DNA of 36,170 nt from Flavobacteriales bacterium (lineage in GTDB: Bacteria > Bacteroidota > Bacteroidia > Flavobacteriales > UBA1820): the NCBI GenBank assembly GCA_017537565.1, contig JAFYKQ010000060.1, positions 1-36,170 of the forward strand, given 5' to 3'. This document shows positions 19,368 through 28,239 of the stretch, one piece after another. The notes beneath the pieces were generated by a model. That model saw nothing but the letters and a program-made list of their open reading frames with translations. It made no database searches and was not told the origin of the DNA. Each line of letters starts with the position of its first letter. Positions within the stretch are counted from its first letter, which is position 1. The position numbers and the translations under genes were made by a program.

Positions 19368-22300
19368 TTTTCTTTTCTGTTTTTCTGTGTCCAAATATAA
19401 ACTATGGGTATGATAAAGTCGTTGAGAAGGGTAGAGGATAGAAGTCCACCCAGTATAACCTTTGCCATAGGGCTTTGTATTTCATTGCCAGGTAGGTCTC
19501 CGCCTATGGCCAGTGGTATAAGTGCCAGTGCCGATGTGAGTGCCGTCATAAGTATAGGGTTAAGACGGTCTAGAGAACCGTGCAGTACGGCATTATAAAG
19601 ATTTTCTCCCTCTTTCTGTAACTGACCATAACGGCTCACAAGTAGTATGCCGTTACGTGTAGCGATACCAAATAGTGATATGAAACCTATGATGGCAGGT
19701 ATGCTTATAATGCCGCTGCTCAACCATATAGCCATCACTCCACCTATAAGAGCAAATGGCATGTTGAGCATTATGAGTGACGAAATTTTTAAGTTCTTGA
19801 ATTGCTGGTATAGCATCATAAAGATTACCAACAGAGAGAAAATAGATGTAAGCATCAGTGTGCGCGAAGCCTGACGTTCGCTTTCAAACTGTCCTCCATA
19901 TTCCACGTGGTAGCCTTCTGGCATTGAAACCTGTGTATTTACTATATCTTGTATTTTTTCTACTGCACCACCTAAGTCTCCGTCTGCAACGTTGGCCGAA
20001 AGAACTATCTTGCGACGTACATTCTCACGAGAGATAGTATTGGGCCCTGCCGTGCTACGCACTTCACATATCTGGTCTAGTGGAACTTTACCCATAGGCG
20101 TGTCTATGTACATAGAAGCGATACTCTCCATCGTTGCACGCGAAGCGTCTTCGGCCTTGACCGTGATGTCATACACTCGGCTGCCTTGATAGACGTTTGA
20201 AACCACACGCCCTGCCAGTGCTATGTCTATGTATTCCTTAAAGTGAGACATTGCTATGCCGTATTTGGCCAACATATCTCGGCGGGGAACTATGGTGAGT
20301 TGTGCACGTTCTATCTGTGGTTCCAGGTTTACGTCTGCTATACCCTCTACACCGCTTATTTTTTTCTGTATATCCTGCCCTATGCGATACATAGTGTTGA
20401 GGTCATCACCAAAAATCTTGATGGCAATGTTGGCACTAGTACCCGATAGCATAGCATCTATACGGTGAGAGATAGGCTGTCCTACCTCTATGGCTACACC
20501 CGGTATGTCTGAAAGTGTATGTCGTACGTGAGCAAAAAACTCGGCACGAGAACGGTCTTTAAGTTCAAAAGGAACTTCCAGTTCTGATGCGTTGGCACCT
20601 AGTGCGTGTTCGTCCAGTTCTCCACGACCTGTCTTACGGCTAACGGTTTTGACTTCGGGTATAGAGAGGAGTTTCTTTTCTATGATGCGTCCTATACTGT
20701 CGTTCTGGTGTATGTCTATACCTGGTAATGTGCTGGTGCCTATACTCAACGAACCTTCGTTAAAAGCAGGAAGGAAACTGCGTCCCAGTTGAGTCATTAT
20801 ACATACCGCCACTATAAGTACTGCAGCCATCGTACCCATACATATTCTCTTGTGATGTAGTACCCATATAAGAGATTTTTCATACCATTTCTTTACAAAG
20901 GCCGAAACAGGAGGTTCTTTTTCTGAACGTTTCATACTCTTTTCTCCCTTGAGAAGGAAATAGCACAACACAGGAGTAATAGTCATAGCCACTACCATAG
21001 ATGCGGCTAGAGATACTATAAATGCTATACCCAGCGGAATGAGCATACGGCCTTCCATGCCGCTTAGGAAAAATAGTGGTATAAAAGCCGTGATAGTTAT
21101 AATAGTAGCACTCACGATAGATGAACGTATCTCTACCGATGCGTCATATATGACGTTTAGCGTTCCTTTGCGTTCCTCTGGTGGGAGCAGATGGTTTTCC
21201 TTGAGACGTTTATACACGTTTTCAACGTCTATAATGGCATCATCTACCAGCGAACCTATCGCTATGGCCATACCGCCTAGACTCATCGTGTTAATAGTAA
21301 GTCCCATCATATGCATCACAAGTATCGCAACTAGTAGCGATAGAGGCAATGCCACGAGTGATATGATGGTCGTACGGCCGTTCATAAGGAATAGGAACAG
21401 TACCACCACGACAAATAAAGCCCCCTCTATAAGAGCTCTCTGTATGTTGTTTATAGAGTGGTTTATAAAATCTGCCTGACGGAATATATCTGTCGATACG
21501 TGAACACCATCGGGTAGTTTGGACGATATTTCATCTACCGCAGCATCTAGTCTCGATGTGAGTTCTATGGTATTGGTAGCTGGTTGTTTGGTTATGGTTA
21601 CCAGTACGGCAGGTACTGTCTTTTCTGATGCCAGCCCCAGTATAGGGCTCTTGCCTCCAGTTTTAACCGTTGCTATATCACCTATCGTTACAGGAGAACC
21701 ATCTACACTTTTAACCACACAGCGAGCTATATCTTCTGTATGTGTGGTAGATACCAGTCCTCTTACTATGTATTCGTTGCCCCACTGGTATAGAATACCA
21801 CCTATGGAGTTTTCGTTGAATTCTCGTGTGGCGTCCAGTAGTTCGTCCAGTGTTACGCCATGGTAGTTCATCTTTTCTGGAGAGAAAAGTATCTGGTATT
21901 CTTTTATATCACCACCTATGACTGTTGCTTGGGCAACACCCTGTACAGACATAAGTCGTGGACGGAATGTCCAGTCTCCCAGCGTGCGTAATTCTTCCAT
22001 AGATACCTCGCCTTTGGGTGAGGTGAGAGCCACTATGTACATCTCGCCAAGTATAGATGACTGTGGTCCCATAGTAGGAGTACCTACGCTGGCAGGGAAT
22101 GCATCTACTAGTGTGGATAGTTTTTCTGATACTATCTGGCGGGCACGGTATATGTCCATTCCCCAGTCAAATTCTACCCATACCACAGAAAATCCTGTCG
22201 TGGCACTGGAGCGTACACGACGTACACCCGTAGCACCGTTAAGAGCTGTTTCCAGTGGGAAGTTAACCACGCGTTCTACTTCTTCTGGAGCTAGACCTTT

Positions 22301-22496: not shown

Positions 22497-23720
22497 TTAG
22501 TGTTCGTGGCTGTGAGGTATAGCACCTGTATTCCCAGCCAATTTTACACGATAGACACCTGCTGTAACTATTGTTTCGCCAGCTTTAAGACCGCTCTTTA
22601 TCTCTACGTTTACACCATCTGTCATACCTATCACTACAGGTTGTTTGCGGTAGCTGTCACTGCAAGTCTTTACATATACAAAGTATTCGCCTTGTTCTTC
22701 TGTGATGGATTGTGCAGGTATGGTTATAGTTTCAAAAGCCGAGTCTACGCGTAGATATACATCGGCAAAGGCTCCTTCTGGAATATCTCCCGTAGAGTCG
22801 TACTCTATGATGAGTGAAAGCAGTCCAGCACCAGATACGCTCTTGGAATAAGTGATTACTTTACCGCCCAGTGTAGCAGTGTCATATTTTTTACCTGCCG
22901 TAGTTATAAATACAGCCGATGTTATCTGTGCCAGTTTGTCAAAATACTTCTGTGGAACATCGACTTCTATACGTCCGCGGGTGTTTTTAACCACTTCAAA
23001 AAGAGCTGTTCCTCTTTCCACATAATCACCATTTTCTACTGCTATGTTTTTTATAAACCCACTCATAGGGCTTTTTACAGCTATTTCTTTTCCTGTGTTT
23101 TTATTGATGGACTCGTAAGCCATACGTGCTTTGTCATATTCGGCGCGTGTAGCGTCATATGTGTCTTGGGATATGATATGGTCTGTGATAAGACTATCGG
23201 CACGTTGCATACGGGCTGTCCATAGTTTATAGTCGGCCTCTATTGTAGCTACCGATGCACCCTGAGTGTTATCTGCCGCTATACGCATAACAGGGCTGCC
23301 GCCATTTACCATAGAACCACGAGCCGTATTGTTGTTAAATCTCACAAGACCAGTGGCAGGTGCTGTAACTACTGTCGCCCCCTGAGGAGTGGTGATTATT
23401 CTACCAGCTGTCTTTATAACGGGGTGGAAATGGTTGCGACTTACCACCTGTGTGGCAAAACTACCCAGCGAAGCTTCGTGAGCGGTAAAGGTTATCTCAC
23501 CTTCATTGTGGCTATGAGCAGCGTGGTCGTGCCCCTCGTGAGAGTGAGTCTCGTGAGCGTGAGAAGAATGGTCATGCCCCTCGTGAGAGTGAGTCTCGTG
23601 AGAGTGAGTCTCGTGAGTGTGAGAAGAATGGTCGTGTCCCTCGTGAGAGTGAGTGCTTGTATTGGTGCCTCCGCAGGCTGCTACACATAGAGCAGTGAAG
23701 ACTATAATAAATTTTTTCAT
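22497..23720 (-). CDS. RND periplasmic adaptor lipoprotein with His-rich N-terminus
   Basis: Membrane-fusion protein joining pump and channel. The 407 residues start with a lipoprotein signal, FIIVFTALCVAAC, with Cys16 as the lipid site. A histidine-rich stretch follows (about 23-72): a three-fold repeat of THSHEGHDHSSHxHE-like units with about 20 His. The standard adaptor then begins: barrel and lipoyl halves (TAPATGLVRFNN / AVKSPMSGFIKNIAVENGDYV), a short hairpin (about 150-200) and the C-terminal domain GLKAGETIVTAGVYRVKL. It ends in SHEH. The His repeats are absent from ordinary CusB/CzcB cores and may buffer or scavenge metal. Confidence 0.92.
   Translation of the reverse strand: MKKFIIVFTALCVAACGGTNTSTHSHEGHDHSSHTHETHSHETHSHEGHDHSSHAHETHSHEGHDHAAHSHNEGEITFTAHEASLGSFATQVVSRNHFHPVIKTAGRIITTPQGATVVTAPATGLVRFNNNTARGSMVNGGSPVMRIAADNTQGASVATIEADYKLWTARMQRADSLITDHIISQDTYDATRAEYDKARMAYESINKNTGKEIAVKSPMSGFIKNIAVENGDYVERGTALFEVVKNTRGRIEVDVPQKYFDKLAQITSAVFITTAGKKYDTATLGGKVITYSKSVSGAGLLSLIIEYDSTGDIPEGAFADVYLRVDSAFETITIPAQSITEEQGEYFVYVKTCSDSYRKQPVVIGMTDGVNVEIKSGLKAGETIVTAGVYRVKLAGNTGAIPHSHEH
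23505..23654 (-). repeat. Tandem DNA repeat coding the His-rich stretch
   Basis: About three copies of a 45-48 bp unit built around cctcgtgagagtgagtctcg and gagaagaatggtc. The period is a multiple of three, so copies change length without shifting frame. Such repeats are prone to strain-to-strain copy-number change. Confidence 0.75.
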
Positions 23721-24320: not shown

Positions 24321-24818
24321 TTACTCCTGTTCTACCCACATAAGACGTGATGTGTCATATCCTTTTTCTCTCGCAGTATTGAGCAAATGATTTTTTACAT
24401 CGTCTGTAAGTGATGGTGTTCGGGATAGTATCCATAGGTATTTATCGCTGGAAGAGCCTATGAGAACATAACGGTATTCTGGGTCCAAATCCAGAATGAT
24501 ATAGTCTGAATAAAACCACAGGAAGAACGATACCTTCAAATGTAGCGGATTCCCATCATCGGCCATTTTGGCACGACCTATGGCTGTTTTTATCTTTCCA
24601 TCTGGACGTACACCGCTGTTTTCTACACGCACCTTGCCGTCGTCTTCCAGGGTGTATGTTGTCTTGACGTGGGAGAGTCCTCGTTCAAACCAGTGGTCAA
24701 AGCGCGCTACTTCGTACCAACGGCCCATGTATTTTTCTATGTCAAAATTTTTATTTCCAGCTGTTTCCTCGCCAGGAGATGCAAAAAGGCAAAGTAGTAT
24801 CATAGCTAGTGTTTTCAT
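24321..24818 (-). CDS. Lipocalin family protein (Blc-like)
   Basis: Eight-stranded barrel protein that binds lipids in the envelope. The 165 residues include the first lipocalin signature YMGRWYEVARFDHWFERG (about 30-47), the YTLEDDGKVRVENSG strand, and the C-terminal YVLIGSSSDKYLWILSRTPS, all as in bacterial Blc. An N-terminal hydrophobic stretch (MKTLAMILLCLFASPG) acts as a signal; Cys10 does not sit in a good lipobox. The gene is a separate unit upstream of the efflux operon, 90 bp away. Ligand unknown. Confidence 0.92.
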   Translation of the reverse strand: MKTLAMILLCLFASPGEETAGNKNFDIEKYMGRWYEVARFDHWFERGLSHVKTTYTLEDDGKVRVENSGVRPDGKIKTAIGRAKMADDGNPLHLKVSFFLWFYSDYIILDLDPEYRYVLIGSSSDKYLWILSRTPSLTDDVKNHLLNTAREKGYDTSRLMWVEQE

Positions 24819-24924
24819 TGGTTTAAGGTTGTTGTTTGCTTATAAATGTACGGTATTTTTCTGGATTTTTATGCTATAAAAAAGCAAATTTTTTTACGGG
24901 GAATGTTTTTTTTGCACAAAATTC

Positions 24925-24942
24925 TTACGATTTACATCGTAA
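24925..24942. promoter_or_regulatory. Operator-like palindrome ttacgat-ttac-atcgtaa
   Basis: Seven-bp perfect inverted repeat with a 4-bp centre, 37 bp before the ATG at 24979. Size, spacing and AT-rich arms are those of a dimeric repressor site; BlaI/MecI-type operators are one possibility (inference). Confidence 0.4.
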
Positions 24943-24978
24943 ATATAACGCATACAAATAATCAAAAAACGTACAGCC

Positions 24979-25050
24979 ATGAAATCACTTAAATTCTTTC
25001 TCCTGGCGGTGATAGCGGGGTTTCCCCACACTCAAACTTCGCTTTATTAG
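24979..25050 (+). pseudogene. Truncated exported-protein start, interrupted at codon 14
   Basis: An ATG preceded by an operator-like palindrome opens MKSLKFFLLAVIAG, a plausible signal peptide. It then continues as FPHTQTSLY and stops at TAG (25048-25050). The same frame is otherwise open to TAA at 25183-25185. The sequence after codon 14 changes character: GC-richer, with no typical coding pattern, and with nested inverted repeats. This looks like the head of a secreted-protein gene cut off by other sequence; a genuine 23-aa peptide is the alternative. Confidence 0.4.
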
Positions 25051-25190
25051 CCTCGCTACGCTCGTCTAACAAGCTACGGATATGAGGTCTCGGTCGTATT
25101 TTGTCTGGCTATCCTGCGTGCGTTTTTAATGTCAATGGGACGAGCGGTGGGCGGCTACTTAGAGAGGCTCTGGTGCCAAATTTAAATAGT
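25014..25190. other. Structured GC-richer element of unknown nature
   Basis: Begins with a small gggg-ttt-cccc hairpin (25017-25027) and holds two nested complementary pairs: agcctc (25049-25054) with gaggct (25164-25169), and cgctcgtc (25059-25066) with gacgagcg (25139-25146). Codon-like order and base use differ from the flanks. It could be a small RNA or a short repetitive or mobile element. The 24819-25250 gap holds nothing else but the truncated start, the palindrome and the terminator. Confidence 0.35.
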
Positions 25191-25201
25191 AGTGATAATT
25201 A

Positions 25202-25237
25202 AAAAAAAGGGAGTTGCCGCGGCAACTCCCTTTTTTT
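25202..25237. terminator. Perfect bidirectional terminator
   Basis: A 36-nt perfect palindrome: seven A, gggagttgccg / cggcaactccc, seven T. It lies 13 bp after the stop of the RRM protein gene (minus strand) and can also stop plus-strand transcription coming from the element at 24979-25190. Confidence 0.9.
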
Positions 25238-25250
25238 AAGGTATGGTATA

Positions 25251-25871
25251 TTACTCTTCGCTAGGAGTAGTATTTTCGTTGTCATAACGACGGTAAGGAC
25301 GCTGTGGGGCGTTATCCCTTACTTGATATGGACGCTGCTGATACCCACCGTTGTTCTGGCGTGGACGATACCCGTTGTTATTCTGTTGCTGACGGTATCC
25401 ACCATTGTTCTGACGTGGACGATACCCGCCGTTGTTTGGACGTTGGTTGTATTCGCCTCCATTTTGACGAGGAACATATCCTCCCTCACGACGTGTGTAC
25501 TGACCTTCACCCTGTGGGTTGTAAGGTCTTTCACTTCTCTCCTTGCGTTGAGCAGGACGATAATTTACCTGTCGTGGACGGAACTGTTTCTGTGGGGCAG
25601 GGGTAGAAGGGTGAGTCTTTTTGTACTCTTCGTGAGGTACAGACTCTTTAAGAGTGATTACAGAACCTTCATATTCCACACCTTCTAGTTCGGCGATGGC
25701 TTGAGCGGCTTTTTCATCATCACTCATTTCTACAAAACCGTAACATTTGGAACGGCCTGTCTGTGGGTCCATAATGACTTTGGAAGAAGTTACCTCTCCC
25801 CATTGTTCCAGAAGCATCTGTAAAGATTCTGATGTAGTGCTTTGGGATAGTCTTGCTACAAAAATTTTCAT
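25251..25871 (-). CDS. RRM-domain RNA-binding protein with low-complexity tail
   Basis: Bacterial RRM (Rbp) protein of 206 residues. The N-terminal 75 residues are one RRM, with RNP2 IFVARL (3-8) and RNP1 KCYGFVEM (42-49). A Pro/Gln/Arg-rich linker follows, then a Gly/Asn/Gln/Arg/Tyr repeat region (about 130-190) of units like GGYRPRQNN. Short RRM proteins of this kind are common in Bacteroidota, where some act as global RNA regulators; this one is unusually long because of the tail. Two overlapping -7 boxes lie upstream. Confidence 0.92.
   Translation of the reverse strand: MKIFVARLSQSTTSESLQMLLEQWGEVTSSKVIMDPQTGRSKCYGFVEMSDDEKAAQAIAELEGVEYEGSVITLKESVPHEEYKKTHPSTPAPQKQFRPRQVNYRPAQRKERSERPYNPQGEGQYTRREGGYVPRQNGGEYNQRPNNGGYRPRQNNGGYRQQQNNNGYRPRQNNGGYQQRPYQVRDNAPQRPYRRYDNENTTPSEE
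25319..25440 (-). repeat. Degenerate tandem repeat coding GGYRPRQNN units
   Basis: About four imperfect copies of a 27-30 bp unit in the 3' part of the RRM gene, coding GGY(R/Q)(P/Q)(R/Q)QNN-type motifs. Confidence 0.6.
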
Positions 25872-26043: not shown

Positions 26044-26265
26044 ATGACACAGATTATAAGACGATATGCCTCGCGTTATGGACTGGGAGTTTCCTCTCGT
26101 CTGGCTGCTCGTATGTCTATGAGAACCAATAGTATGCGTTCTTTTATGATATATAGTGCGTTTTTTACATTGGGGGCTTCGTTTGTGGTGTATCTGTTGC
26201 TGGCAGGACTGCTCAAGATAAAAGATTTGATTTTCAAACCTCGTCGTTCGGTGTTTGATTTGTAG
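26044..26265 (+). CDS. Small basic membrane protein, 73 aa
   Basis: Not recognised. From the ATG at 26044 the protein has an Arg-rich amphipathic N-terminus (RRYASRYG, SRLAARMSMR), one membrane segment (about residues 32-55, FMIYSAFFTLGASFVVYLLL) and a short basic tail ending in PRRSVFDL. It lies 36 bp upstream of mrp in the same direction, without a terminator between, so it is probably in the same transcript. A longer version from a TTG at 26008 is unlikely because that TTG is part of the -7 box. Confidence 0.65.
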   Translation: MTQIIRRYASRYGLGVSSRLAARMSMRTNSMRSFMIYSAFFTLGASFVVYLLLAGLLKIKDLIFKPRRSVFDL

Positions 26266-26301
26266 AGAAATGATTGAAAAATAACATTAAAAGATAAAGA
26301 A

Positions 26302-27369
26302 ATGAATATTGAAAAGGAAAAGATATTGGAGGCTTTGCGTCCTATTATGATGCCTAGTACATCTATGGATATAGTAGATGCAGGAGGTATTCGTGATATA
26401 ATGATAGAAGATGATGCTATTCATATAGAGGCGGTTATATTTTCTCCTGCTATGAATATGCGTCGTAAGACAGAAAACCAAATCATTTATCTCATAGAAA
26501 AACTATACCCACAGGCTCGTATCACTGTACATGTAGGTAGTGAAAAACCAGCCGATGATAAGATAGCACCGGTTGAAACTTCTATATCTCGTGTAAAACA
26601 TATCATCGCTATAGCATCGGGTAAGGGTGGTGTAGGTAAATCTACTCTTTCGGCAAACCTGGCCATAGCACTTTCTCGTAAGGGTTATAAAGTGGGACTA
26701 GTAGATGCCGATATATATGGCCCATCTATGCCTATAATGTTTAACGTGGAAGACGCTATGCCTGTCGCAGTGCGTGAGGGTGATAAAGATATGATGGCAC
26801 CTATCGAAGCCTATGGCGTAAAACTACAATCGATAGGCTTTTTTGCCAAGGCAGGTCAAGCGATGGCTTGGCGTGGAGCTATGGCTACCAAGGCTCTTCA
26901 ACAGATGATATTTGAAACAGTGTGGGGAGAACTTGACTTTCTACTTATAGATATGCCTCCTGGAACGGGAGATATACACCTTACTCTTACAGGAGCACTT
27001 CCACTTACGGGAGCTATCGTTATAACTACCCCACAGAATGTAGCTCTTAACGATGCACAGCGTGGTATAGAGCTATTCCGCAATGACAATATAAACGTGC
27101 CGGTGATAGGTGTAGTGGAAAATATGTCATATTTCACTCCTGCCGAATTGCCAGAAAACAAATACTATATATTTGGTAAACACGGTGGTAAGAACTTGGC
27201 AGAGGATTATGGTATTCCATTCTTGGGAGAGATACCACTTGTGCAGTCTATACGCGAGGCGGCCGATGCAGGACAGCCTATCGCACTAGTAGATGATAGC
27301 CCTATGGCTCGTGCTTTTTCTGATGTGGCAGACAGCATAGTCCTATATGCCGAAAAATCACTCCAATGA
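26302..27369 (+). CDS. mrp: Mrp/ApbC-type P-loop ATPase for Fe-S cluster transfer
   Basis: Cytoplasmic ATPase that carries Fe-S clusters to target proteins. The 355 residues have an N-terminal MIP18/DUF59 domain (about 1-85) and a ParA/Mrp domain with deviant Walker A ASGKGGVGKSTLSANLA, VDADIYGPSMP, and the DMPPGTGDIHLT segment. In place of the CxxC pair that binds the bridging cluster in ApbC/Nbp35, the segment after VENMSYF reads TPAELPENKYYIFG and has no cysteine, as I recall for other Bacteroidota. It is followed 3 bp later by a NifU-domain gene. Confidence 0.93.
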   Translation: MNIEKEKILEALRPIMMPSTSMDIVDAGGIRDIMIEDDAIHIEAVIFSPAMNMRRKTENQIIYLIEKLYPQARITVHVGSEKPADDKIAPVETSISRVKHIIAIASGKGGVGKSTLSANLAIALSRKGYKVGLVDADIYGPSMPIMFNVEDAMPVAVREGDKDMMAPIEAYGVKLQSIGFFAKAGQAMAWRGAMATKALQQMIFETVWGELDFLLIDMPPGTGDIHLTLTGALPLTGAIVITTPQNVALNDAQRGIELFRNDNINVPVIGVVENMSYFTPAELPENKYYIFGKHGGKNLAEDYGIPFLGEIPLVQSIREAADAGQPIALVDDSPMARAFSDVADSIVLYAEKSLQ

Positions 27370-27372
27370 TAA

Positions 27373-27657
27373 ATGGATAACACGCAAGATTATAAAACGC
27401 TAGCACAGCACGGAATAGATGACGTCCGTGCTGTTTTGCTAGGTGATGGTGGGGATATACGTCTGGTGGGAGTATCTGGTGATGCCCGCGTGGTGTATGT
27501 CTCTCTTATGGGTGTGTGTGCAGGTTGTATGATGAGCGAAGTTACTCTTTCCACACTTGTAAAAGGAAGTATAAAAAAATACATTCCACAGGTAGAAGAA
27601 GTGGTGAACGTGGGAGAGGGTTATGCAGACTGTGAGGGTGGAGATACATACCTGTGA
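27373..27657 (+). CDS. NifU C-terminal-domain Fe-S carrier protein
   Basis: Small 94-residue protein made of one NifU-like domain. The cluster-binding CxxC is in GVCAGCMMSEVTL (about residues 54-57), followed by the helix TLVKGSIKKYIPQVEEVVNV. The order mrp then NifU domain, with a 3-bp gap, says the two act together: this protein supplies the cysteines missing from the C-terminal part of Mrp (inference). No terminator follows clearly in the 123 bp before queD. Confidence 0.9.
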   Translation: MDNTQDYKTLAQHGIDDVRAVLLGDGGDIRLVGVSGDARVVYVSLMGVCAGCMMSEVTLSTLVKGSIKKYIPQVEEVVNVGEGYADCEGGDTYL

Positions 27658-27734
27658 TTTTTTTTACGGTGAGAATAGATATTTAAAAAACACTCTATTT
27701 TATTGCCGATAGAGGTAAATCCAAAACTCTTTAT

Positions 27735-27742
27735 TACATTTG
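27735..27742 (+). promoter_or_regulatory. -7 box of the queD operon
   Basis: Exact TACATTTG, 38 bp before the queD ATG. The predicted leader starts with a small hairpin, gagcat (27749-27754) / atgctc (27764-27769). No -33 match at normal spacing. Confidence 0.5.
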
Positions 27743-27780
27743 CAAACAGAGCATCATAAATCTATGCTCGGTGATATATT

Positions 27781-28239
27781 ATGTCTGTAATACGCGTTAC
27801 CAAAGAATTTACATTTGAAGCAGCACACGCCCTTTATAACTATGATGGGCAGTGTTCCAACATACACGGGCATTCATACCGACTATTTGTTACGGTAAAG
27901 GGTAGTCCTGTGTGTGATATAAATCACCCAAAAAACGGTATGGTGATGGACTTTTCTTATCTCAAAGAGATAGTAAACCGCCACGTTATAGAACCTTTGG
28001 ACCATAGCCTGATGGTGTATAATTTATCTCCACAGGCAGATATACGTACATCGCTTGCAGGTAAAGGTGTGGGTATGAAGATAGTGGAGTGCCCATATCC
28101 TCCCACGTGTGAGATGTTGCTTTCAGACCTTGCGGGAAAGATAAAAGCTTCGTTGCCAGAAGGTGTTACGCTGCATCGTTTGCGTCTGCACGAGACCGCC
28201 ACTTCCTATGCCGAATGGTGTGCCAGTGATAACGAATAG
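27781..28239 (+). CDS. queD: 6-carboxy-5,6,7,8-tetrahydropterin synthase (QueD)
   Basis: Second step of queuosine (7-deazaguanine) synthesis: dihydroneopterin triphosphate to 6-carboxytetrahydropterin. The 152 residues show the pterin-synthase fold with Zn histidines in FEAAHAL and NIHGHSY, the catalytic Cys in GQCSNIHGH, LDHSLMVY, and the C-terminal LHETATSYAEW. 6-Pyruvoyltetrahydropterin synthases are relatives; the GQCSNIHGH order and bacterial context favour QueD. All eight isoleucines are ATA. lpxH follows 30 bp later. Confidence 0.9.
   Translation: MSVIRVTKEFTFEAAHALYNYDGQCSNIHGHSYRLFVTVKGSPVCDINHPKNGMVMDFSYLKEIVNRHVIEPLDHSLMVYNLSPQADIRTSLAGKGVGMKIVECPYPPTCEMLLSDLAGKIKASLPEGVTLHRLRLHETATSYAEWCASDNE

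Follow-up and report, generated by a model that had tools for sequence, protein, structure and literature searches.

How a signal-peptide start that breaks off after 14 codons came to lie against a GC-richer, hairpin-bearing segment is the question raised by positions 24925-25190 of the window, by which we mean the whole stretch of DNA analysed (36,170 nucleotides; contig JAFYKQ010000060.1 of Flavobacteriales bacterium GCA_017537565.1). A sequence-only reading had offered two answers, a small mobile or repetitive element inserted in a regulated gene, or a structured RNA using that gene's promoter. The most likely answer is of a familiar kind, a gene relic beside a genus-restricted interspersed repeat (here repeat B), which is neither a new RNA nor a freshly inserted mobile element. 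The locus was compared within its own genome (G000, a 1.7 Mb draft assembly of 136 contigs, 97% complete) and with a sister genome of the same genus (G002), the comparison partner for synteny; copy numbers in both come from sequence searches and from individual stretches that were read. The features of the locus are as follows.

24321-24818, minus strand: lipocalin-family gene (Pfam Lipocalin_2), left flank of the relic and synteny anchor; G002 ortholog 76% identical.
24906-24978, plus strand: promoter and 5' UTR of a multi-copy gene family; 79-86% identity to the sequence preceding family genes of G000 and G002.
24979-25020, plus strand: 14-codon coding remnant (MKSLKFFLLAVIAG), the start of a SusC-like protein (CarboxypepD_reg and plug); matched by family signal peptides.
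25014-25022, plus strand: putative deletion junction AGCGGGGTT, similar to the gene (AGCGGGGCT) and to the repeat hairpin (AGTGGGGCT) alike, as seen against the C34 gene and the C21 repeat copy of G002.
25017-25032, plus strand: hairpin unit GGGG-TTT-CCCC followed by a tail, ACACT; the G002 C21 copy has the identical right arm.
25033-25142, plus strand: left-truncated B copy, core CAAACTTCG...GTCAATGGGACG, recognized by identity to other copies in G000 and G002.
25143-25187, plus strand: small palindromic unit (AGAGAGGCTCT) and TTTAAA joint; such kinds lie beside other B copies too.
25209-25230, strand not assigned: hairpin GGGAGTTGCCGCGGCAACTCCC between A and T runs, resembling an intrinsic terminator; similar hairpins follow family genes on C57 and C101.
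25251-25871, minus strand: gene for an RRM RNA-binding protein (Pfam RRM_1), converging on the relic; ortholog on G002 C18.

Farther to the left, window positions 23513-23690 carry histidine-rich tandem repeats (HSHEGHDHSSHAHETHSHETH) near the N-terminus of an HlyD/CzcB-like efflux adaptor.

When 24900-25220 was searched against G000, its left part and positions 25031-25142 gave two separate sets of matches, and in G002 the head and tail again matched separate places, indicating that this stretch is a chimera of two multi-copy sequences. Their join is real in the G000 assembly and is what matters most in the original observation. GC content rises, as had been noticed, from 0.28 upstream to 0.38 in the head and 0.50 in the repeat, and the frame, interrupted by one TAG, is otherwise open to 25185.

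The head had been taken for a gene start cut short, and this was borne out. The ATG at 24979 and the signal-peptide-like start are present, and from about 24906 to 25020 the sequence corresponds to the start of a gene family, upstream region and first codons included; intact members run on past codon 14 (...GSLSLGAAAQNYEVKGVVIDAKGEPVVGATV). The GATAGCGGGG variant of the relic signal peptide is also found in the G002 C34 gene and on G000 C20, and the family variant GATAGCGGGGCTATCC is found, with one change, in the G002 syntenic gene and on G000 C20. The relic promoter may still fire, yet the product would be only a 23-codon peptide. The operator-like palindrome TTACGAT-TTAC-ATCGTAA is likewise present (24925-24942), but it is neither conserved nor more than chance would give: perfect 7-bp palindromes with loops of 0-8 number 58 in the window, and the perfect form is private to the relic copy, homologous heads reading GTACATTTACATCGTAGAT. 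The operator reading was rejected on both grounds.

An intact paralogue of the relic carries PF13620, PF13715, and PF07715 (CarboxypepD_reg, CarbopepD_reg_2, and plug), and a comparison of the family profile with the PDB found SusC homologues, matched over their N-terminal and plug regions. The proteins are about 550 aa long and end after plug-like modules; no barrel family was matched in them, either in Pfam or in the PDB profile comparison, that would indicate a C-terminal beta-barrel, and a low-confidence structure model of a family protein (mean pLDDT 65.5) shows none. In a search of 60 genomes, matches were confined to G000 (13), G002 (17), and G001 (9, weaker); the other 57 had none. Since these counts include diverged relatives and fragments of a single gene, G000 and G002 can reasonably be credited with about 10 copies each. 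The expanded family is seen on G000 C57, C72, C101, C90, C112, and C29, and on G002 C27, C34, C6, C8, and others, with very similar 5' ends, at least two promoter types, and many copies at contig ends. The signal-peptide codons of family genes (e.g., L107 1501-1566) form a small palindrome in two versions, GATAG-CGGGG-CTATC and GATAG-GCAGC-CTATC. Other truncated family genes in G000 end at contig ends, which leaves the relic as the only internal one seen.

The suspicion that the right part is repetitive also proved correct, with 7 core copies of B plus partial units in G000 and others in G002. The core in the window is 94-95% identical to five other G000 copies, 89% to a sixth, and 95-96% to two in G002. 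The copies that were read are intergenic and lie mostly beside terminators at gene 3' ends. The long form, about 235 bp, consists of a hairpin (CCTCTTTTCTTTG...CAAAGAAAAGAGG) and an imperfect palindrome of about 110 nt running from ACGCAG to CTGCGT. Some copies keep the right part only, with another left arm in front, and the ends carry small palindromic caps, which makes the B repeats mosaics. The window copy, which extends over about 25017-25142 with its hairpin cap (the GGGG-TTT-CCCC hairpin described earlier does lie at 25017-25027), is a left-truncated form starting at CAAACTTCG, like the G002 C21 and G000 C45 copies, and lacks the left pairing arm of intact copies. A second repeat form with a different left arm (TTCTTTCTTTTGTTTGGTAGACAAAAGAAAGAA hairpin after a longer shared sequence) is present on G002 C42, C23, C1, C6, and C15, mostly near contig ends.

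Judged by sequence searches, B is lineage-specific and found only within the genus. DNA searches of 36 genomes from outside it found nothing, and a near-exact pattern run over GTDB 220 contigs was found only in the sister MAG JAGAUI01 (Flavobacteriales, water deer colon), although diverged relatives would escape both searches. Several identities for the repeat were tried and rejected. A 51-codon minus-strand frame is open in some copies but contains a stop in one, and a sample of 295 genomes of the class yielded no relative beyond G000; a phage origin was set aside as two exact patterns were unmatched in viral contigs. An integron attC cassette site was dismissed because the integrase model TIGR02249 gave only sub-threshold matches in G000, as in all 14 control genomes, and a REP/BIME element with its REP-associated transposase because PF01797 (Y1 transposase) had no match in the 97% complete genome. 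No published description of this repeat was found in the literature.

The sister genome bears on how the two parts were joined. It does hold the uninterrupted allele that might be expected of a damaged gene: on G002 C34 a family gene stands beside the lipocalin ortholog, in the same place and direction as the relic, and runs uninterrupted until the contig stops, some 22 codons before the family's C-terminus would be reached. On G002 C18 the RRM gene starts 347 bases into the contig, and these bases, at the 3' side of the gene, contain a degraded B copy oriented as in the window (GTCTCGGTAGCATTTTGTCAATGGGACGG) together with a terminator-like hairpin, suggesting that the repeat is probably older than the truncation. 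Collinearity between the window and G002 holds for RRM and for the four genes that follow it (26044-28239), and in the window the family gene body is absent beyond the repeat. We therefore consider it probable that a gene relic was joined by deletion to a pre-existing intergenic repeat.

Under this deletion model, the ancestor would have carried, in order, lipocalin, family gene, B repeat, terminator, and RRM, and a deletion of about 1.6 kb or more would have joined the gene at codon ~14 to the hairpin capping B, most likely through slippage or illegitimate recombination at a short word that gene and repeat have in common, AG[C/T]GGGG (AG[C/T]GGGGCT). The hairpin at the junction reads AGCGGGGCT in the gene, AGTGGGGCTTCCCCACACT in the repeat, and AGCGGGGTTTCCCCACACT in the window, where it is chimeric: its left arm is of the gene type, its right arm of the repeat type, and the two pair with one C-A mismatch. 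The window follows the gene up to AGCGGGG and the repeat beyond (closest repeat copy AGTGGGGCTTCCCCACACTCAAAC; window GATAGCGGGGTTTCCCCACACTCAAAC), which is what a deletion between short similar words would be expected to leave. We infer the order of events and the microhomology mechanism from these comparisons, and this B copy is presumably functionless. Against the model, the ancestral order is not read through in G002, where it is pieced together from two contigs that both break near repeats; the G002 C34 locus has another promoter type than the window, so either paralogue exchange also occurred or the orthology is imperfect; and a draft-assembly chimera is possible.

A broader possibility concerns rearrangement at B copies. 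On G002 C21 two genes flank one B copy (near 20258-20491), and their G000 orthologs lie on two contigs, C72 (14694-14930) and C57 (23288-23521), on each of which collinearity ends at a B copy; on the far side of one of these copies lies a family gene. This single example suggests that B copies can be rearrangement points. Together with the promoter types that differ between syntenic loci, it underlies the doubtful proposal that B repeats and shared promoters form a recombination system of the genus that moves and exchanges barrel-less SusC-like genes as cassettes, in which case the window would represent a failed exchange.

Of the insertion originally proposed, a cut gene next to a multi-copy repeat stands, but a simple insertion does not, because the remainder of the gene is missing beyond B. 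A small MITE-like element might have inserted and the rest of the gene been lost later, and the multi-copy, intergenic character of B and its long form opening with a strong hairpin would suit such an element. This is nevertheless unlikely, given that the gene body is missing on the far side, that the sister species also has a B copy by RRM, that no terminal inverted repeat or target-site duplication is evident by eye on the flanks of B copies, and that a Y1 transposase was not found in G000. In addition, the window copy starts at the same internal point as two other hairpin-capped copies, and was thus probably already truncated. Still less probable is a contig wrongly joined at a repeat: the draft is fragmented, and contig ends are a frequent place for family genes and B copies, but the two sequences have no more than about 7-9 bases in common at the join, much less than the word sizes usual in assembly, and both sides are compatible with G002 contig ends, making misassembly of the junction unlikely.

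The nested long-range pairs that had suggested an RNA exist (CGCTCGTC at 25059-25066 with GACGAGCG at 25139-25146, and AGCCTC at 25049-25054 with GAGGCT at 25164-25169) but are not unusual, as 179 8-bp inverted repeats within 120 bases occur in the window. Across B copies, 6-7 of the 8 pairs of the longer helix are kept in most (G-U counted) and 2 of 8 in one, and the second helix relies on a separate hairpin unit. Intact copies fold differently, as the imperfect palindrome. Relative to shuffled sequences, 25010-25190 has a z of -0.10 on the plus strand and -2.43 on the minus strand (0.07 for 25016-25145 alone), and minus-strand z values of -1.7 to -2.9 were obtained for 4 of 6 other B copies tested. 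RNAalifold on five long copies gave a 44-pair consensus palindrome with a single compensatory pair and a covariation term of +0.32, so compensatory change, sought as a sign of RNA, gives no support. A structured regulatory RNA expressed from the family gene's promoter is hardly credible, despite the palindrome with its one compensatory change and the minus-strand folds, since that promoter drives the plus strand, which folds at shuffle level, the window copy lacks the left pairing arm, other B copies do not adjoin this promoter, and no Rfam family matched at gathering or relaxed thresholds.

On the deletion model, an odd-looking junction becomes a case of gene decay at a repeat, and a false candidate for a structured RNA is removed. 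Of some wider interest are the barrel-less SusC-like genes of uncultured gut Flavobacteriales, an expanded family with shared promoters that lies beside mosaic repeats, at least one of which marks a rearrangement point.

Both halves of the junction resemble known systems. The family proteins share with SusC/RagA TonB-linked outer-membrane proteins an N-terminal CarboxypepD_reg domain and a plug, but at about 550 aa they appear to repeat reg/plug modules and have no beta-barrel. Repeat B resembles REP/BIME elements in its arrays of small palindromic units at gene 3' ends near terminators, but differs in that the genome has no detected REP-associated (Y1) transposase. Stem-loop-containing interspersed repeats have been described as 92 families in 40 bacterial genomes (PMC2267715). 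Compared with these at the level of general description rather than family by family, B is set apart by its mosaic build, exchangeable left arms, hairpin caps, and few copies, but it is like them short, multi-copy, mostly intergenic, and apparently able to fold into a stem-loop.
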